Below are positions 6,861 through 18,495 of a DNA stretch of 18,495 nucleotides, piece by piece (the stretch's first letter is position 1; every line of letters starts with the position of its first letter). The translations under genes and the position numbers were made by a program. The DNA lies in NCBI GenBank assembly GCA_012841845.1, contig DUTZ01000429.1:1-18495 (forward strand), given 5' to 3'. Source of the stretch: Actinomycetales bacterium (lineage in GTDB: Bacteria > Actinomycetota > Actinomycetes > Mycobacteriales > Mycobacteriaceae). The notes beneath the pieces were generated by a model. It did no database searches, had not been told where the DNA came from, and saw nothing but the letters and a program-made list of their open reading frames with translations.

Positions 6861-7889
6861 TCAGACCCGCGCCTCGCCCCCGCCCCCGGCGTCGGGGAGG
6901 ATGACGGCCCGGTCGTCGGTCCCGACGGGCTCGCCGCCGTTCTTGTTGGTGGTGCCCGCCAGGAGCACGCCCTCCGTCAGCGCGGTGAGGCCGGTCAGGC
7001 GCCCGTAGCGCTCCTCCGCGCGGGACTCGGGCTGCCCCTGCGCCGCGCCGCCGGAGGTCGCGAGCGTGTCGACCCGCTCGGCGTCCGGCAGGGCCACGGA
7101 GAGCGAGTCGGGCAGGGCCGCGCAGCCGCCGACCGCGCGCTGCTCCGGCCAGGTCCACACGACCCGGTCGGGGGTCCGGGCCACGACGCCACGGTCGGTG
7201 GTGGCGGTGAGGAACACCTCGTCGTCGACCGTGCACAGCCCCCGGACCTCGCCGAGGTCGCGGGCCAGGACCTCGGGCCGCTCGGCGCGGCCGACGCCGG
7301 TGAAGTCGGGGAAGCGCAGCAGCTCCCCGCCGACCGCCACGGTGAGGAGGTCGTCGACGAAGGCCAGACCGCCGGAGGCGGCCGGGGCGAGCTCGGCGAC
7401 GGTGCGGGGGGCGTCGCCGCGGGCGAGCCGCTCGACCCGGGTCGGCCCGTCACCCACCACGAGGACGTAGACCAGACGGTCCTCGGCGAAGTCGGGGGAG
7501 GGGGCGACGGCCGCGACGCGTCCGCCCCGGGGGTCGACGCGGCCGAAGTCCTCCGGGTCGGCGTCGACGGAGACGACCCGGATGCGGCCGCCCTCCTCGG
7601 CGAGGAGGGCCTTCTCCCCGATCCCGGCGACCGCGACCGCCGGCTCGAGGCAGGTGGCGATGACCGCGGGGTCGGGGTCGTCGCACGGGCCGGGCTCGGC
7701 CGGCTCCTCCGCCGGCTCCGAGGTGGTCGGGGGCTGGTCGGGTTCGCGCTGGCCGGGTGGTGCGGAGGGCGGCGGCGCGCCCATGCCGGGGCCCTGGGCC
7801 GGGGTGAACGGCGAGTCGAGGCGGTCGTCGAACCGGGCGCAGCCGGAGACGGCCAGTGCCACCACCAGCCCGAGCGCGACGGATCTCAT
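6861..7889 (-). CDS. lppZ: LppZ-like lipoprotein, putative beta-propeller sugar-dehydrogenase relative
   Basis: A 342-residue exported lipoprotein. The signal sequence (MRSVALGLVVALAVSGC) ends in a lipobox with Cys17 as the lipid-anchored residue. A low-complexity Pro/Glu linker follows to about residue 75. The rest has repeated short beta-strand units such as GEKALLAEEGGRIRVVSVD, GLAFVDDLLTVAVGG and GLTALTEGVLLAGTTNKNG, consistent with a six-bladed propeller of the glucose/sorbosone dehydrogenase (PQQ-dependent) group. The gene lies in the position of lppZ (Rv3006). The sequence is divergent and I cannot place PQQ- or calcium-binding residues, so enzymatic activity is not shown. The frame extends upstream to 8006, but ATG 7889 begins the signal peptide and has TACGCT seven bases before it. 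It is divergent from the DoxX gene. Confidence 0.8.
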   Translation of the reverse strand: MRSVALGLVVALAVSGCARFDDRLDSPFTPAQGPGMGAPPPSAPPGQREPDQPPTTSEPAEEPAEPGPCDDPDPAVIATCLEPAVAVAGIGEKALLAEEGGRIRVVSVDADPEDFGRVDPRGGRVAAVAPSPDFAEDRLVYVLVVGDGPTRVERLARGDAPRTVAELAPAASGGLAFVDDLLTVAVGGELLRFPDFTGVGRAERPEVLARDLGEVRGLCTVDDEVFLTATTDRGVVARTPDRVVWTWPEQRAVGGCAALPDSLSVALPDAERVDTLATSGGAAQGQPESRAEERYGRLTGLTALTEGVLLAGTTNKNGGEPVGTDDRAVILPDAGGGGEARV

Positions 7890-7896
7890 GCCGACC

Positions 7897-7952
7897 AGCG
7901 TACGGCGCGGCCGCCGTGTCGCCCGCGTGGCGTCCGTAATGCCGCCTATGGT
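7897..7952. promoter_or_regulatory. Divergent leaderless promoters for lppZ-like and DoxX genes
   Basis: The two genes face away from each other across 69 bases. On the minus strand TACGCT (7902 to 7897) ends seven bases before the lppZ-like ATG at 7889. On the plus strand TATGGT (7947-7952) ends six bases before the DoxX GTG at 7959. Neither start has a ribosome site, so both messages probably begin at the start codon. No convincing -35 box is seen for either. Confidence 0.5.
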
Positions 7953-7958
7953 CGGGAC

Positions 7959-8831
7959 GTGACTTCCTCCACGCCCGGCGACGACTCCCGTACCGAGATC
8001 ATCCACGACGTCGACTATCCGCTCGACGTCCCGACGACCTCGGGCTCCGGCATCGGAAGCAGCGGTGCCGAGAGGGCGGCCGCGTCCACCTCCTCGGGGG
8101 CGGCGACCAGCCGCATGCCCGCGGCGTCGGCCCGGGACGCCGGCGCCGACTCCGGGACCGACACGTCCACGCGCGCGTTCGCCACCGACACCGGCGGGTA
8201 CGACGCATCCGGCCCGCTGCCGTACGGCGACCAGCCCACGACGGTCGAACCGACCCGCCGGGCCGAGGCCCCCGGGCGCGGCACCGCCGATCTCGGGCTG
8301 TTCCTGCTGCGGGTGACGGTGGGCGTGCTGCTGGCCCTGCGCGGGCTGCAGAAGCTCTTCGGGGTGTTCTCCGGCCCGGGCATCGACGGCTTCACGGCGA
8401 TCCTCACCGACGCCGGGTTCGAGCAGGCCCGGATCCTCGCCGTGGCCGGCGGGGCGCTGGAGCTCATCGGCGGCGTCATGCTGGTCGTGGGGCTGGCGAC
8501 CCCCGTGGCGGCCGCGGGGCTCCTCGGCCTGGTGGGGCTCGGTGCCGCGATCCGCCTCACCGGGCCCGAGACGGTGGCCCTGCTCGGCGAGACGACCCGC
8601 GGGCTGGACACGTCGATCCTCTACGGCGTGGCGCTGCTCGCCCTGCTGTTCGCCGGACCCGGCCGCTGGTCGGCCGACCGCCGGTGGGCCTGGTCGTACC
8701 GGCCGCGGTTCAGCGGCCTCGTCTGGCTCCTCGTGGCGCTCGCGGCGGCCGCGCTCGTCTGGTACTTCCTCAACGGCACCAACCCGCTCACGTCGGTGGT
8801 GGACAGCGCGCCGGTCACCGCCGGCGAATAG
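7959..8831 (+). CDS. DoxX-family membrane protein with long disordered N-terminus
   Basis: A 290-residue protein. Residues 1 to about 108 are rich in Ser, Ala, Gly, Thr and Asp with no apolar segment, so this part is probably a disordered cytoplasmic tail. DoxX follows: helices near 111-132 (with the LRVTVGVLLALRGLQKLFG motif), 157-179, 181-200 and 219-235. A further C-terminal helix lies near 252-271. M. tuberculosis DoxX (Rv3005c), in the same neighbourhood, is part of a membrane complex with SodA and the thiosulfate sulfurtransferase SseA that resists oxidative stress. A related role is possible but cannot be seen here. The GTG start is supported by the -10 box six bases upstream. The gene ends 13 bases from the convergent ilvD. 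Confidence 0.88.
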   Translation: MTSSTPGDDSRTEIIHDVDYPLDVPTTSGSGIGSSGAERAAASTSSGAATSRMPAASARDAGADSGTDTSTRAFATDTGGYDASGPLPYGDQPTTVEPTRRAEAPGRGTADLGLFLLRVTVGVLLALRGLQKLFGVFSGPGIDGFTAILTDAGFEQARILAVAGGALELIGGVMLVVGLATPVAAAGLLGLVGLGAAIRLTGPETVALLGETTRGLDTSILYGVALLALLFAGPGRWSADRRWAWSYRPRFSGLVWLLVALAAAALVWYFLNGTNPLTSVVDSAPVTAGE

Positions 8832-14939: not shown

Positions 14940-16544
14940 GTGCGCCACATCATCCGAGGTGTGGGTGCGGCGGTCCTCGCCGTCTCCCTCGCCGCCACCA
15001 CCGTGGCGTGCACCTCCTCCCCGGAGGGCGAATCGGTCGCCGCGGCGGCCTTCGAGGGCACGCGCGTGGCCGCGGACCCCGACGCGACGGGCGCCGACGC
15101 CGCCCGCCTGCTCGTGGACTCCGCCCCGATCGCCGTGGTGTCCGCCCCCGACGACGCGGCCATCGCCCGTGCCGCCTCGGTGGCGGTGGGTCTGCGCGCC
15201 CCCATGCTGACCGCCGAGAAGGACGCCGGCGAGGCCGTCTCCGAGGAGCTGGACCGGCTCGGCGTGGAGCGGGTGCTCCGCGTGGGCGACGCGGACGTCC
15301 CGGACGGCTCCTACGAGGTGGTGGACGCGCCCGCCGGCCGCGAGGAGCTCGAGGAGCTCACCGGGCTGGAGTTCGCGGACGAGCAGGAGCCGGCGGCGGC
15401 CCGGGTCCCCGAGACGGTGGCGGACCTGGACCCCGGGGAGCCCGCCCTCCTCGTCGTCGGGGACGTGCCCGGCCCAGAGGGGGCGGAGGGCGAGCCGTTC
15501 TCCGCGCTCGACGCGGCGTGGACGGAGGACGACGCCCCCCGGGTGCTCGTCCACGACGAGACCTCCGTGGCGTCCGTCGCCACCGCGGTGGCGGCCGGCG
15601 CCGCCGTGTCCCACCTCGGGGCCCCGGACCCGCGGGTCGACGGCGACTCCGTCGAGGCCGTGAGCGGGGCGGACGCCGTCCTCGCGCTCGGCCCGGGCTG
15701 GGGGAGCGAGGACCAGCTGCGCGACCGGGTGGAGAAGGCCCGGACGGTGCCCGAACTCCCCGGCGGCGGCCAGCTGCTCTTCCCCGGGCGTCGGTTCGTG
15801 GCAGCCTACGGCTCGCCGATCACGCCGGCCCTGGGCATCCTCGGCGAGCAGGGGGCCGAGGAGAGCGCGGCCCGGGTCCAGCGGCTCGTCGACGAGTACC
15901 AGCCGTTCTCGCCCGAGCCGGTGATCCCGGCGTTCGAGATCATCGCGACCGTCGCCTCGACCTCACCCGGCCCGGACGGGAACTTCACCAACGAGTGGCC
16001 CGTCGAGGAGTTCGTCCCGCTCGTCGAGGCGATCACCGACGCCGGTGGCTACGCCGTGATCGACCTGCAGCCCGGGATGGCGGACATGCTCGACCAGGCC
16101 AAGCTCTACGAGGACCTGCTCAAGCGCCCGAACGTGGGCCTGGCCCTGGATCCGGAGTGGAAGCTCGAGCCCGGGCAGCAGCCCGGCGCCCAGATCGGCA
16201 GCGTGGACGCCGAGGAGATCAACCGCGTCGTGCACTGGCTGGCGGACCTCACCCGGGAGACCGGCGGGCCGCAGAAGCTGCTCATCCTCCACCAGTTCAA
16301 CATGTCCATGATCGCCAACCGTGAGGACATCGACACCTCGCGCCCCGAGCTCGCGATCTCGCTGCACGCCGACGGGCACGGCACCCCGGAGATGAAGTTC
16401 GAGACGTGGGACGTCCTGCGCAGCGGGCTCCCGTCGGACATCTGGATGGCGTGGAAGAACTTCTACGACGAGGACACTCCCACCTTCACCCCGGAGCAGA
16501 CGATGGACGTCGAGCCCCGGCCCTGGTTCGTCTCCTACCAGTAG
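14940..16544 (+). CDS. Exported lipoprotein with CWB2-like and barrel-like regions, function unknown
   Basis: A 534-residue protein. The signal peptide ends in a lipobox (TVAC) with Cys24 as the lipidated residue, so it is anchored outside the membrane. Residues 50-130 (IAVVSAPDDAAIARAASVAV, then RAPMLTAEKDAG and LDRLGVERVLRVGDADVP) resemble cell-wall-binding repeat 2, and a weaker second copy may lie at 165-255. Residues 275-534 look like an alpha/beta barrel: strands end in YAVIDLQPG (Asp375), VGLALDPEW (Asp404, Glu406), LLILHQF (His451), LAISLHADGHG (His476, Asp478) and IWMAWKNFYDED. A glycosidase-like fold is possible, but I cannot name a family, and the acidic residues are only candidates. 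The start is GTG 14940, five bases after GAGGAGGA. It follows ilvC but has no evident link to that pathway. Confidence 0.8.
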   Translation: MRHIIRGVGAAVLAVSLAATTVACTSSPEGESVAAAAFEGTRVAADPDATGADAARLLVDSAPIAVVSAPDDAAIARAASVAVGLRAPMLTAEKDAGEAVSEELDRLGVERVLRVGDADVPDGSYEVVDAPAGREELEELTGLEFADEQEPAAARVPETVADLDPGEPALLVVGDVPGPEGAEGEPFSALDAAWTEDDAPRVLVHDETSVASVATAVAAGAAVSHLGAPDPRVDGDSVEAVSGADAVLALGPGWGSEDQLRDRVEKARTVPELPGGGQLLFPGRRFVAAYGSPITPALGILGEQGAEESAARVQRLVDEYQPFSPEPVIPAFEIIATVASTSPGPDGNFTNEWPVEEFVPLVEAITDAGGYAVIDLQPGMADMLDQAKLYEDLLKRPNVGLALDPEWKLEPGQQPGAQIGSVDAEEINRVVHWLADLTRETGGPQKLLILHQFNMSMIANREDIDTSRPELAISLHADGHGTPEMKFETWDVLRSGLPSDIWMAWKNFYDEDTPTFTPEQTMDVEPRPWFVSYQ

Positions 16545-16558
16545 GCACCGCCCGGTGG

Positions 16559-16581
16559 GCGCGGGCTGGTGGCCCCCGCGC
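16559..16581 (+). terminator. Likely terminator hairpin after the lipoprotein gene
   Basis: GCGCGGG (16559-16565) pairs perfectly with CCCGCGC (16575-16581) around a nine-base loop. A smaller competing stem, CGCCC/GGGCG (16549-16561), overlaps it. No T-run follows, so any termination would be of the U-less kind. Confidence 0.45.
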
Positions 16582-16605
16582 GGTAGACCCGGCACCACCC
16601 CCGAC

Positions 16606-16635
16606 TTGATACCCCCTGGGGTATCTGCATATCCT
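16606..16635 (+). promoter_or_regulatory. Promoter of the ten-helix membrane protein gene
   Basis: TTGATA (16606-16611) and TATCCT (16630-16635) with an 18-base spacer form a near-consensus sigma-A promoter. Transcription would start near 16642. The first palindrome (16608-16625) covers the -35 and most of the spacer, and the second (16643-16660) begins at the expected start site, so a bound repressor would block both. The ribosome site is GGAGAGAGG (16669-16677), before ATG 16685. Confidence 0.8.
16608..16625. promoter_or_regulatory. Palindromic operator 1, CsoR/CstR type
   Basis: GATACCCCCTGGGGTATC is an 18-base palindrome with perfect eight-base arms and a two-base centre. The pattern TACCC-N4-GGGTA is that of operators bound by the CsoR/RcnR/FrmR/CstR (DUF156) repressor family, which sense Cu(I), Ni, formaldehyde or persulfide. 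No such regulator gene is in the window. Confidence 0.75.
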
Positions 16636-16642
16636 CCTCTCA

Positions 16643-16660
16643 GATACCCGCTGGGGTATC
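16643..16660. promoter_or_regulatory. Palindromic operator 2, CsoR/CstR type
   Basis: GATACCCGCTGGGGTATC repeats operator 1 with one change (C to G at the fifth C) that breaks one base pair of the palindrome. Its centre is 35 bases from that of operator 1. Being placed at the transcription start, it would suit cooperative repression with operator 1. Confidence 0.72.
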
Positions 16661-16684
16661 ACTCGACTGGAGAGAGGCCCGTCC

Positions 16685-17914
16685 ATGCACCGCGTGTTCA
16701 CCTCGGACTACCGACCGCTGTACTTCCTCTCGGCCCTCGGGGCCGGGGGCATGTCGGTGTCCGTGTTCATGTACCTCATGTTCCTCGTGCCGCACCCGGA
16801 CACCCCGGTGCCGACGTTCGAGGACATCGCGAAGGTCTACGCCGAGGGGTCGCTCGCCGCGGCCGCCGGCGTCTCCGTGGCGCTGGCGCTCATCGCCGGC
16901 TTCGCGACGCTCCACGTGTTCCTGCTCGTGGCCAACATCGCCGCCTACCGCCGCTTCGTGGCCTCGCCGGCCTTCGAGCAGCTCCGGACGACCAACGCCG
17001 AGGTCGGCCTCATGGCCGTGCCTCTGACGTACGCCATGGCCGTCAACGTGGCCTTCGTCCTGGGCGCCGTCTTCGTCCCCGGCCTGTGGTCCGTGGTGGA
17101 GTTCCTGCTCCCCGTGGCGCTCGTCGCGTTCGTCGCCATCGGCGCCTACGCGCTGGCCCTGTTCGGCCGCTACCTCACGCGCATCCTCGTCCACACCGGC
17201 TTCGACGCCGAGGACACCAACCACTTCAGCCAGGTGCTGCCGGCGTTCGCCTTCTCGATGATCGCCGTGGGCTTCTCCTCCTCGGCCGCGATGAGCCACG
17301 TCACCGCGACGTCGGTCCTGGGCATGCTGGGCACCCTGTTCTTCCTGCTCGCCGCGATGATGTGGGTGGTCGTCAAGCTGCCCGTGAGCTTCGGGGCGAT
17401 CCTCCGCAAGGGCATGGCCGTCGAGGCGGGCCCGACCCTGTGGATGGGCATCCCGATCCTCACGCTCGTCGGCATCGCGTTCGTCCGCTTCTCCTCGGGC
17501 ATCGCCCACAACTTCATGGACACCACGCTCGACCCCAGGATCACGTTCGTCGTGCTCGGCGGGCTCGTCGCCGCGCAGCTCGTCATGGGCCTGGTCGGCT
17601 GGATGGTCATGCGCCGCCAGGGCTACTTCGCGACCTTCGTGCGCGGCGAGAAGTCCTCGATCCCCTCGTACGGGCTCATCTGCCCCGGCGTCGCGCTGAG
17701 CGTGCTCGCGATGTTCTTCCTCCACTGGGGCCTGGTCAAGACGGGTGTCGTGCACCAGTTCTCCGCCGCCCACTGGCTGCTCCTGCTGCCGGTCCTCTAC
17801 GTCCAGGTGGTCACGGTGGTCACGATGCTGCGGCTCAACCGCAAGCTGCTCGTCGGCGGCCCCGGGTTCGCCCCGCGCCCCGCGGCGCAGGAGAAGGCGG
17901 CCGTCGCCGCCTGA
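16685..17914 (+). CDS. Ten-helix membrane protein under a CsoR/CstR-type operator, TDT/SLAC1-like
   Basis: A 409-residue inner-membrane protein with about ten helices, near residues 13-35, 57-87, 106-130, 138-162, 183-203, 208-231, 250-271, 285-309, 329-350 and 362-384. The helix number and length fit the tellurite-resistance/dicarboxylate (TDT, SLAC1) group, which includes sulfite exporters, but I see no decisive motif. NCBI's name 'TsoY family (seleno)protein' may apply; that is from memory and unverified. The protein has a single cysteine, Cys333, in LICPGVALS at the start of helix 9, which suggests a functional site. The promoter carries two CsoR/CstR-type operators. There are no Cys/His-rich metal sites, which argues against copper transport and leaves reactive sulfur species as a plausible signal and substrate. 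Start ATG 16685 has a strong ribosome site. Function is inferred, not shown. Confidence 0.8.
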   Translation: MHRVFTSDYRPLYFLSALGAGGMSVSVFMYLMFLVPHPDTPVPTFEDIAKVYAEGSLAAAAGVSVALALIAGFATLHVFLLVANIAAYRRFVASPAFEQLRTTNAEVGLMAVPLTYAMAVNVAFVLGAVFVPGLWSVVEFLLPVALVAFVAIGAYALALFGRYLTRILVHTGFDAEDTNHFSQVLPAFAFSMIAVGFSSSAAMSHVTATSVLGMLGTLFFLLAAMMWVVVKLPVSFGAILRKGMAVEAGPTLWMGIPILTLVGIAFVRFSSGIAHNFMDTTLDPRITFVVLGGLVAAQLVMGLVGWMVMRRQGYFATFVRGEKSSIPSYGLICPGVALSVLAMFFLHWGLVKTGVVHQFSAAHWLLLLPVLYVQVVTVVTMLRLNRKLLVGGPGFAPRPAAQEKAAVAA

Positions 17915-17920
17915 CCCCCG

Positions 17921-17938
17921 CGCGCGGTTCAGCGCGCG
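17921..17938. terminator. Possible bidirectional hairpin between convergent genes
   Basis: CGCGCG (17921-17926) and CGCGCG (17933-17938) form a six-base stem with a six-base loop that contains the stop codon of the minus-strand gene. There is no T-tract. Its position between two converging genes is the main support. Confidence 0.35.
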
Positions 17939-18495
17939 AGGATCCGCCCGGCCACGTGGTTCCCGGCCATGCCGTGGACCCCGGGGCCGGGCGGCGTCGA
18001 CGCCGAGGCGTGCCAGATCCCGGGTAGGCCCGTCGCGTAGGGGTCGCGGCGGGGCACCGGCCGCGCGAGCAGGCCGGCCAGATCGACCCGGCCCGCCGCG
18101 ATGTCGCCCCCGGCGTAGTTGGCGTTGTGCTCGACCATCCGCGACGCGGGCGTGCAGTGGGCGGCCAGCACCACGTCCCGGATCCCCGGCGCGACCTCCT
18201 CGAGCGCCCGCAGGACGTCCTCGGTCACGTCGCGGTCGGAGTGGGTGGGCACGTGCGCGTAGGTCCACAGCGGTCGGCGCCCGTCGTCCGCCACCCGGTC
18301 GGGGTCGGCGACCCACGGCTGGGAGACCAGGACGACCGGCCGTTCGGCGTGGTGCCCGGAGGCGACGGCCCGCTCGGTCGCCGCGATGTCGGCGGCCGTG
18401 CCGCCGAGGTGGACGGTCCCGGCGCCGGCCAGGCGGGCGTCGCGCCACGGCACGGGGCCCGACAGGACGAGGTCGACCTTGGCGGCGCCCCCGCC
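17929..18495 (-). CDS. FAD-dependent oxidoreductase, phytoene-desaturase-like, C-terminal part
   Basis: This is the last 188 residues of a protein whose N-terminus lies outside the window, so no start can be given. An in-frame GTG at 18453 is internal, because coding continues upstream of it (GGGAAKVDLVLSGPVPWRDA). The segment GTVHLGGTAADIAATERAVA and, later, RPVVLVSQPWVADPDRV, LWTYAHVPTHSDRDVTEDVL, MVEHNANYAGGDIAAG and RPVPRRDPYATGLPGIWHAS are typical of the C-terminal half of the phytoene dehydrogenase/CrtI-like amine-oxidase superfamily. The final GVHGMAGNHVAGRIL is the usual end, where the FAD is closed in. The substrate is unknown; the FAD-binding GxGxxG region is not in view. It converges on the ten-helix gene with a 14-base gap. 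Confidence 0.9.
   Translation of the reverse strand, partial: GGGAAKVDLVLSGPVPWRDARLAGAGTVHLGGTAADIAATERAVASGHHAERPVVLVSQPWVADPDRVADDGRRPLWTYAHVPTHSDRDVTEDVLRALEEVAPGIRDVVLAAHCTPASRMVEHNANYAGGDIAAGRVDLAGLLARPVPRRDPYATGLPGIWHASASTPPGPGVHGMAGNHVAGRILAR

Follow-up and report, generated by a model that had tools for sequence, protein, structure and literature searches.

Paired CsoR/CstR-type operators at a tsoY promoter suggest control of a TsoY-family membrane protein within a sulfide/persulfide regulon

Two almost identical palindromes bracket a promoter-like site ahead of the membrane-protein gene tsoY in the window (the whole stretch of DNA that was analysed, 18,495 nucleotides), raising the question of which regulator would act there, which signal would release it and what part TsoY would play in the response. 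Both palindromes are 18 bp long, are assigned to no strand and lie 35 bp apart from centre to centre: the distal candidate operator, GATACCCCCTGGGGTATC (16608..16625), has 8/8 arm pairs flanking a 2-bp centre, and the proximal one, GATACCCGCTGGGGTATC (16643..16660), has 7/8. Each fits the pseudo-palindrome ATACC-N6-GGTAT of CsoR/CstR-type (DUF156) operators exactly. When the window was searched with GATACCCN4GGGTATC at up to three mismatches, three matches were obtained, two of them exact, compared with a shuffled mean of 0.57 (three or more in 2 of 200 shuffles). A promoter scan of positions 16500-16750 returned a single site, TTGATA-18-TATCCT, with 9/12 consensus matches (mean in shuffles 0.0); its -35-like hexamer (TTGATA, 16606..16611, +) and, after an 18-bp spacer, its -10-like hexamer (TATCCT, 16630..16635, +) are assigned by consensus match only. 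The distal palindrome overlaps the -35 hexamer, the -10 hexamer sits between the two palindromes, and the proximal palindrome, 3' of the -10, probably lies near or over the presumed transcription start. A likely ribosome-binding site, GGAGAGAGG (16669..16677, +), was recognised by reading the sequence. The preliminary description of this DNA had reported one perfect palindrome and one with a single mismatch, 35 bases apart, bracketing a near-consensus promoter with one of them over the -35, and all of these elements were recovered. The palindrome pair on the tsoY promoter is real and above chance.

The gene itself, tsoY (16685..17914, +), encodes a 409-aa membrane protein with about 10 hydrophobic segments by hydropathy. 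Its score against NCBIfam model NF047644, the TsoY family, was 473 bits (cut-off 150); the Sec equivalog model NF047643 gave 65 bits (cut-off 250), and no Pfam family matched above cut-off. It looks monocistronic, because the next ORF taken as a gene (17929-18495) sits on the opposite strand. The sole cysteine of the protein, Cys333 (TGC codon, 17681..17683, +), is part of CPGV; its column held Cys in 70/70 rows of alignment A1 (in which the first row, database protein P0001, is not quite identical to the protein translated from the window) and in the 121 rows of a larger alignment (the P0001 sequence twice, P0002-P0120). On the 5' side of the tsoY promoter, an ORF of 534 aa (14940-16544, +) reads as lipoprotein-like and matched no Pfam or NCBIfam family. 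Named TsoY homologues are known in Actinomycetota, Bacillota and Pseudomonadota, and tsoY is rare and patchy among the Actinomycetota sampled: matches above cut-off numbered 1/200 in the order of the window's genome (G000), 1/394 in the class sample, 4/396 in the phylum sample, 4/396 in the order of G917, 3/186 in the family of G918 and 1/60 in the family of G1180, in samples that overlap and count G000, G917, G918 or G1180 themselves.

Conservation of the operator was assessed at eight Cys-type tsoY loci (window, L016, L033, L034, L035, L072, L073 and L074), of which L073 (the same gene as L015) was excluded, being truncated 42 nt 5' of the reference motif. An operator with at most one mismatch precedes tsoY in six of the seven orthologues having at least 100 nt upstream, and the five site-bearing orthologues besides the window encode proteins with 39-66% identity to its TsoY. 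Sites are paired in four of these six (35 bp apart in the window, 36 in L033, 36 in L072 and 33 in L074, where both sites carry one mismatch) and single in L016 and L035. The remaining orthologue, L034, has the highest identity to the window protein (67%) among the six compared and no full site within its 100 nt upstream, where the contig ends; only the right half, GGGGTACC, is present at the contig edge. Simple shuffling of each upstream region, repeated 2000 times, never produced an exact site and produced a one-mismatch site at most once. At the Sec-type loci L021-L023, TACCN6GGTA was absent from about 4.1 kb each.

The genome of the window (2,730,117 bases in 606 contigs, completeness listed as 78%) contained eight exact copies of the core ATACCCN4GGGTAT and none of the reversed pattern, where base composition of the window (12 fixed bases) predicts 0.0003 per window and 0.04 per 2,730,117 bp; with up to two mismatches, the counts were 28 and 7 (reversed). 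The genome search that the preliminary description had suggested yielded candidate targets besides tsoY. In a window of 72% G+C the palindromes might have arisen by chance or serve some unrelated protein that binds GC palindromes, the more so as some sites have no clear target, but the excess of observed over expected and reversed sites and their retention before tsoY orthologues speak against such an origin, which we regard as most improbable.

The genome-wide scan covered six tsoY genomes (G1322 and G1332, also with tsoY, were left out) and gave a total of 38 exact sites (8 in G000, 6 in G917, 12 in G918 and 4 in each of G920, G1067 and G1180), against 0 for the reversed control in each genome. 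The flanks of all 38 sites were read, and every site was assigned to the gene judged most likely. As a raw count by operator position, 18/38 adjoin HMM-supported sulfide/persulfide genes, and 5/38 precede tsoY (two in the window, plus L016, L033 and L035). The other 15/38 fall into neither group, three of them (L042, L048, L061) without clear target. The operator is common to targets besides tsoY, as had been proposed. HMM-supported genes with an operator encode MBL-rhodanese (five sites: L010, L031, L043, L045, L066), Pyr_redox_2 flavoproteins (L067, L049 and, with two sites, L068), TauE (L005, L052), thioredoxin or thioredoxin-rhodanese (L041, L062, L064) and rhodanese (L060). The L049 and L068 flavoproteins are weakly similar to a type III SQR model whose cut-off L067 exceeds; against this selenoprotein model L067 (289-1548, -) reached 576.6 bits (cut-off 525), and it is taken to be a form without Sec because its ORF has no in-frame stop. 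CoA-disulfide-reductase-like genes (L030, L069, L070), which complete the 18, scored below curated cut-offs, and those of L030 and L069 are each divergent from a CstR-like gene; a one-mismatch site at L012 precedes thioredoxin-like and CoA-disulfide-reductase-like ORFs (by reading). Between them, proteins of the SQR, PDO, rhodanese and TauE types convert sulfide and persulfide to sulfite or thiosulfate and carry sulfite out of the cell, and many of the operator-linked genes belong to these types.

Further sites lie at genes for small MCxPxxC proteins (four sites: L004, L047, L050, L053), an IPNPxFGR membrane-like protein (three sites: L039, L046, L063), SLAC1 (one site: L065), methyltransferases (two sites: L011, L040) and peroxiredoxin (one site: L007), and, by reading, between PIG-L-like and methyltransferase-like ORFs (L006). 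PIG-L (LmbE-type) genes adjoin the operator at L068 (1564-2382, +; by Pfam) and at L006 (by reading), and database protein P0310 combines SLAC1 and PIG-L domains in one chain. The small cysteine-rich protein, with MCxPxxC followed by a TTWxGCGxH-like stretch, is encoded 3' of the operator in G000, G918, G1180 and G1067; ORFs of this type are L004:1347-1541 (+), L047:1555-1719 (+), L050:1252-1440 (-), L053:1576-1692 (+) and L062:1597-1779 (+). Of these, L047 and L050 were compared with Pfam and L050 also with NCBIfam, in each case without a match. The IPNPxFGR protein, of 160-168 aa and membrane-like, is encoded 3' of the operator in three genomes (L039:984-1490, L046:985-1491 and L063:1025-1507, all on the - strand) and matched no Pfam family (L039, L046 tested).

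The window contains no regulator gene, and the repressor had been expected to be encoded elsewhere; three DUF156 genes (L001, L002 and L003; 75 to 104 bits, cut-off 22.8) were indeed found in the same genome, all on other contigs. The lack of any such gene, which the preliminary description had named as a refutation, is thereby contradicted. In a DUF156 alignment of 12 rows from the six genomes, C-H-C is present in 4/12 (L001, L029, L054, L055) and the copper His is missing in 8/12 (L002, L003, L030, L031, L056, L057, L058, L059); L058 and L059 are probably one gene split across two contigs, the L059 row being truncated ahead of the first Cys. L001 is a copper-type, CsoR/RicR-like protein (150 bits to RicR, below the cut-off of 175), and its gene adjoins two genes for HMA-domain proteins, one of them a P-type ATPase. 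Were L001 to bind the pair, Cu(I) would induce tsoY, and the L001 promoter does hold a related element, ATACC-N7-GGTAC. This element is, however, longer by one base, and the exact 16-mer was absent from the contigs of all four CsoR-type genes (in G000, G918, G1067 and G1180). In addition, no CsoR-type gene was found in the tsoY genomes G917 and G920, and the operator marks largely sulfur genes. Copper CsoR control of tsoY was set aside, and induction by copper is very unlikely.

L002 and L003 are CstR-like, with both cysteines kept and Asn or Gly in place of the copper His. In PDB searches the top match of L003 was 7mq1 (49 bits), and L002 matched 6ahx (46 bits) and next 7mq1 (45 bits); 7mq1 was deposited as CsoR and is presumably pneumococcal CstR. 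In G000 both genes are preceded only by two-mismatch operator sites, and either protein could act on the tsoY operators. The location of L002 beside an NDMA-dependent alcohol dehydrogenase gene (465 bits, cut-off 440), together with the two-mismatch site before it, might suggest that L002 is the regulator and that formaldehyde or a similar compound is the signal. Yet L002 scored 38 bits against the FrmR model (cut-off 133), it has both cysteines and, like 7mq1, Asn at the copper-His position, and the operator sites mark sulfur genes. FrmR-type control was set aside, and an aldehyde or other electrophile is very unlikely to be the inducer. One DUF156 gene, CstR-like, was found in each of G917 and G920 (G920 is nearly one contig, with 2,282,684 bases of about 2.3 million listed; G917 is a MAG of completeness not given, where 'one' means one found). 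In both genomes an exact palindrome lies between this gene and a divergent CoA-disulfide-reductase-like gene, and palindromes occur upstream of both the CstR-like gene and tsoY.

The CsoR/CstR-type assignment of the preliminary description was upheld by this genome comparison and narrowed to the CstR (persulfide) branch on three grounds: in six genomes the 16-mer is a marker of sulfide/persulfide genes, exact copies are absent from each contig with a CsoR-type gene (four found), and the only DUF156 gene found in two tsoY genomes is CstR-like. Judged from the operators, the promoter-like site, the regulator genes, the regulon membership and the conservation before tsoY, all of them read from sequence, it is highly probable that tsoY belongs to a sulfide/persulfide regulon and is under the control of a CstR-type persulfide repressor. 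From these we infer the repressor binding, its inducer, a role for one of the CstR-like paralogues and the activity of TsoY, as follows. The two palindromes would be paired operators of a persulfide-sensing DUF156 repressor with two cysteines. In the absence of reactive sulfur, the reduced repressor would occupy both sites and block the tsoY promoter at its -35 and start region. Once its cysteines had been modified by persulfide or polysulfide, the repressor would come off the DNA, upon which tsoY would be transcribed along with persulfide dioxygenase-rhodanese, TauE and other scattered regulon members. TsoY would then be a membrane component of the persulfide response, most likely moving small sulfur species (sulfite, thiosulfate, hydrosulfide or persulfide) with the aid of its one conserved Cys, a position taken by Sec in some relatives.

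A persulfide-sensing DUF156 repressor of sulfur-detoxification genes is known in Staphylococcus aureus CstR, and the regulator proposed here would resemble it in both respects; the S. aureus system is a local operon in a firmicute, unlike the scattered sites found here, and to our knowledge tsoY is not among its targets. The closest published parallel is Streptomyces coelicolor ScCsoR, which, in the excerpted text of its description (PMC7533328), occupies two ATACCn6GGTAT sites, at -48 and -9, in the persulfide dioxygenase (PDO) promoter, represses PDO, rhodanese, a sulfite transporter and itself, and binds DNA less well in the presence of polysulfide. By analogy, the distal operator in the window would lie over the -35 and its proximal partner over the stretch 3' of the -10. 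Shared with ScCsoR are the paired ATACCn6GGTAT operators, a two-cysteine DUF156 repressor and, by operator position, targets of the PDO, rhodanese and sulfite transporter types; the pairs here are spaced 33-36 bp compared with 39 in the ScCsoR PDO promoter, and the sites are scattered, unlike the four-gene ScCsoR circuit, in which tsoY was not seen in the same text. Candidate targets beyond that circuit are tsoY, CoA-disulfide-reductase-like, SQR-like, thioredoxin and unknown genes. Thermus thermophilus TTHA1953, according to the excerpted text (PMC10318464), is a DUF156 regulator that its authors aligned with CstR; scattered sulfur targets are common to it and the proposed regulon, but its operator, TACNNTACNNNNGTANNGTA, and its Sox targets differ. 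No paper linking this operator or CstR to tsoY was found in the open-licence PMC literature. The operator type is already known, and what would be added is tsoY as its predicted target. An uncharacterised TsoY (seleno)protein family would thereby be tied to sulfide/persulfide homeostasis and its function made directly testable, and the same operator points to two further unknown proteins, MCxPxxC and IPNPxFGR.

The SLAC1/TDT family (PF03595) includes the sulfite exporter Ssu1, and, like its members, TsoY is polytopic. In a Pfam search no PF03595 match to TsoY was obtained up to E = 1, so that the gathering cut-off was not reached, and a PDB search with the TsoY profile gave nothing up to E = 10. 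The class sample gave four TsoY matches below the cut-off of 150, at 20.6-26 bits, of which the best three were SLAC1 proteins and the fourth a TrkH protein; matches of 18-22 bits in other samples included a sugar transferase and proteins without family. Local hhalign comparison of TsoY with one SLAC1 group gave a weak signal: P was 0.008, against 0.15-0.38 for reversed controls, but the probability was 5%, which falls short of establishing a relationship; the mixed set gave P 0.014, and a second SLAC1 group showed no signal (P 0.27). In global mode, decoys equalled or beat SLAC1 (0.039 and 0.089 vs 0.23). Reciprocal HMM tests placed 1/120 proteins of the first SLAC1 group above 10 bits with the TsoY HMM (17.2) and 2/120 TsoY proteins above 10 bits with the HMM of that group (best 14.4), with no decoy above 10 bits. 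Set against reversed and shuffled sequences as controls, the SLAC1 homology of TsoY is only suggestive, and a sulfur-species permease is a reasonable possibility that falls somewhat short of being probable. In G918 an operator was found at one SLAC1 gene.

Selenoprotein TsoY (NF047643) belongs to the same family as the window protein, which is the Cys form. A single in-frame TGA was present in 3/4 over-cut-off TsoY matches of the phylum sample (396 genomes), and the TGA-coded residue of the Sec-type loci L021-L023 aligns with Cys333, in UALV or UAFV (3/3). In a 2026 review (PMC13188914), selenoprotein TsoY is entered with the motif UxxV, the excerpted text giving no function. Unlike the window, the Sec-type loci carry ArsR-type regulators: in L021, tsoY comes after an ArsR-rhodanese fusion gene and a DsrE protein gene, and in L022 and L023 ArsR-type and DsrE-like ORFs lie near it (by reading). 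The Sec-form neighbourhood is a second sulfur-linked regulatory context. A fuller model, in which TsoY is a distant SLAC1-like permease that exports sulfur species via its Cys or Sec as a member of the persulfide response, and passed independently to the control of two sulfane-sulfur sensors unrelated to each other, CstR (Cys form) and an ArsR-rhodanese-type regulator (Sec form), is tentative and rather doubtful. Plasmid relatives of TsoY (L026-L028, 39-46% identity) have as neighbours FAD-dependent oxidoreductases or a transporter of the BCCT or SulP type. On a Pseudosulfitobacter plasmid (L027), tsoY lies near a BCCT transporter gene and near an ORF (7711-8220, -) whose annotation, L-2-amino-thiazoline-4-carboxylic acid hydrolase, is that of a cysteine-forming enzyme.
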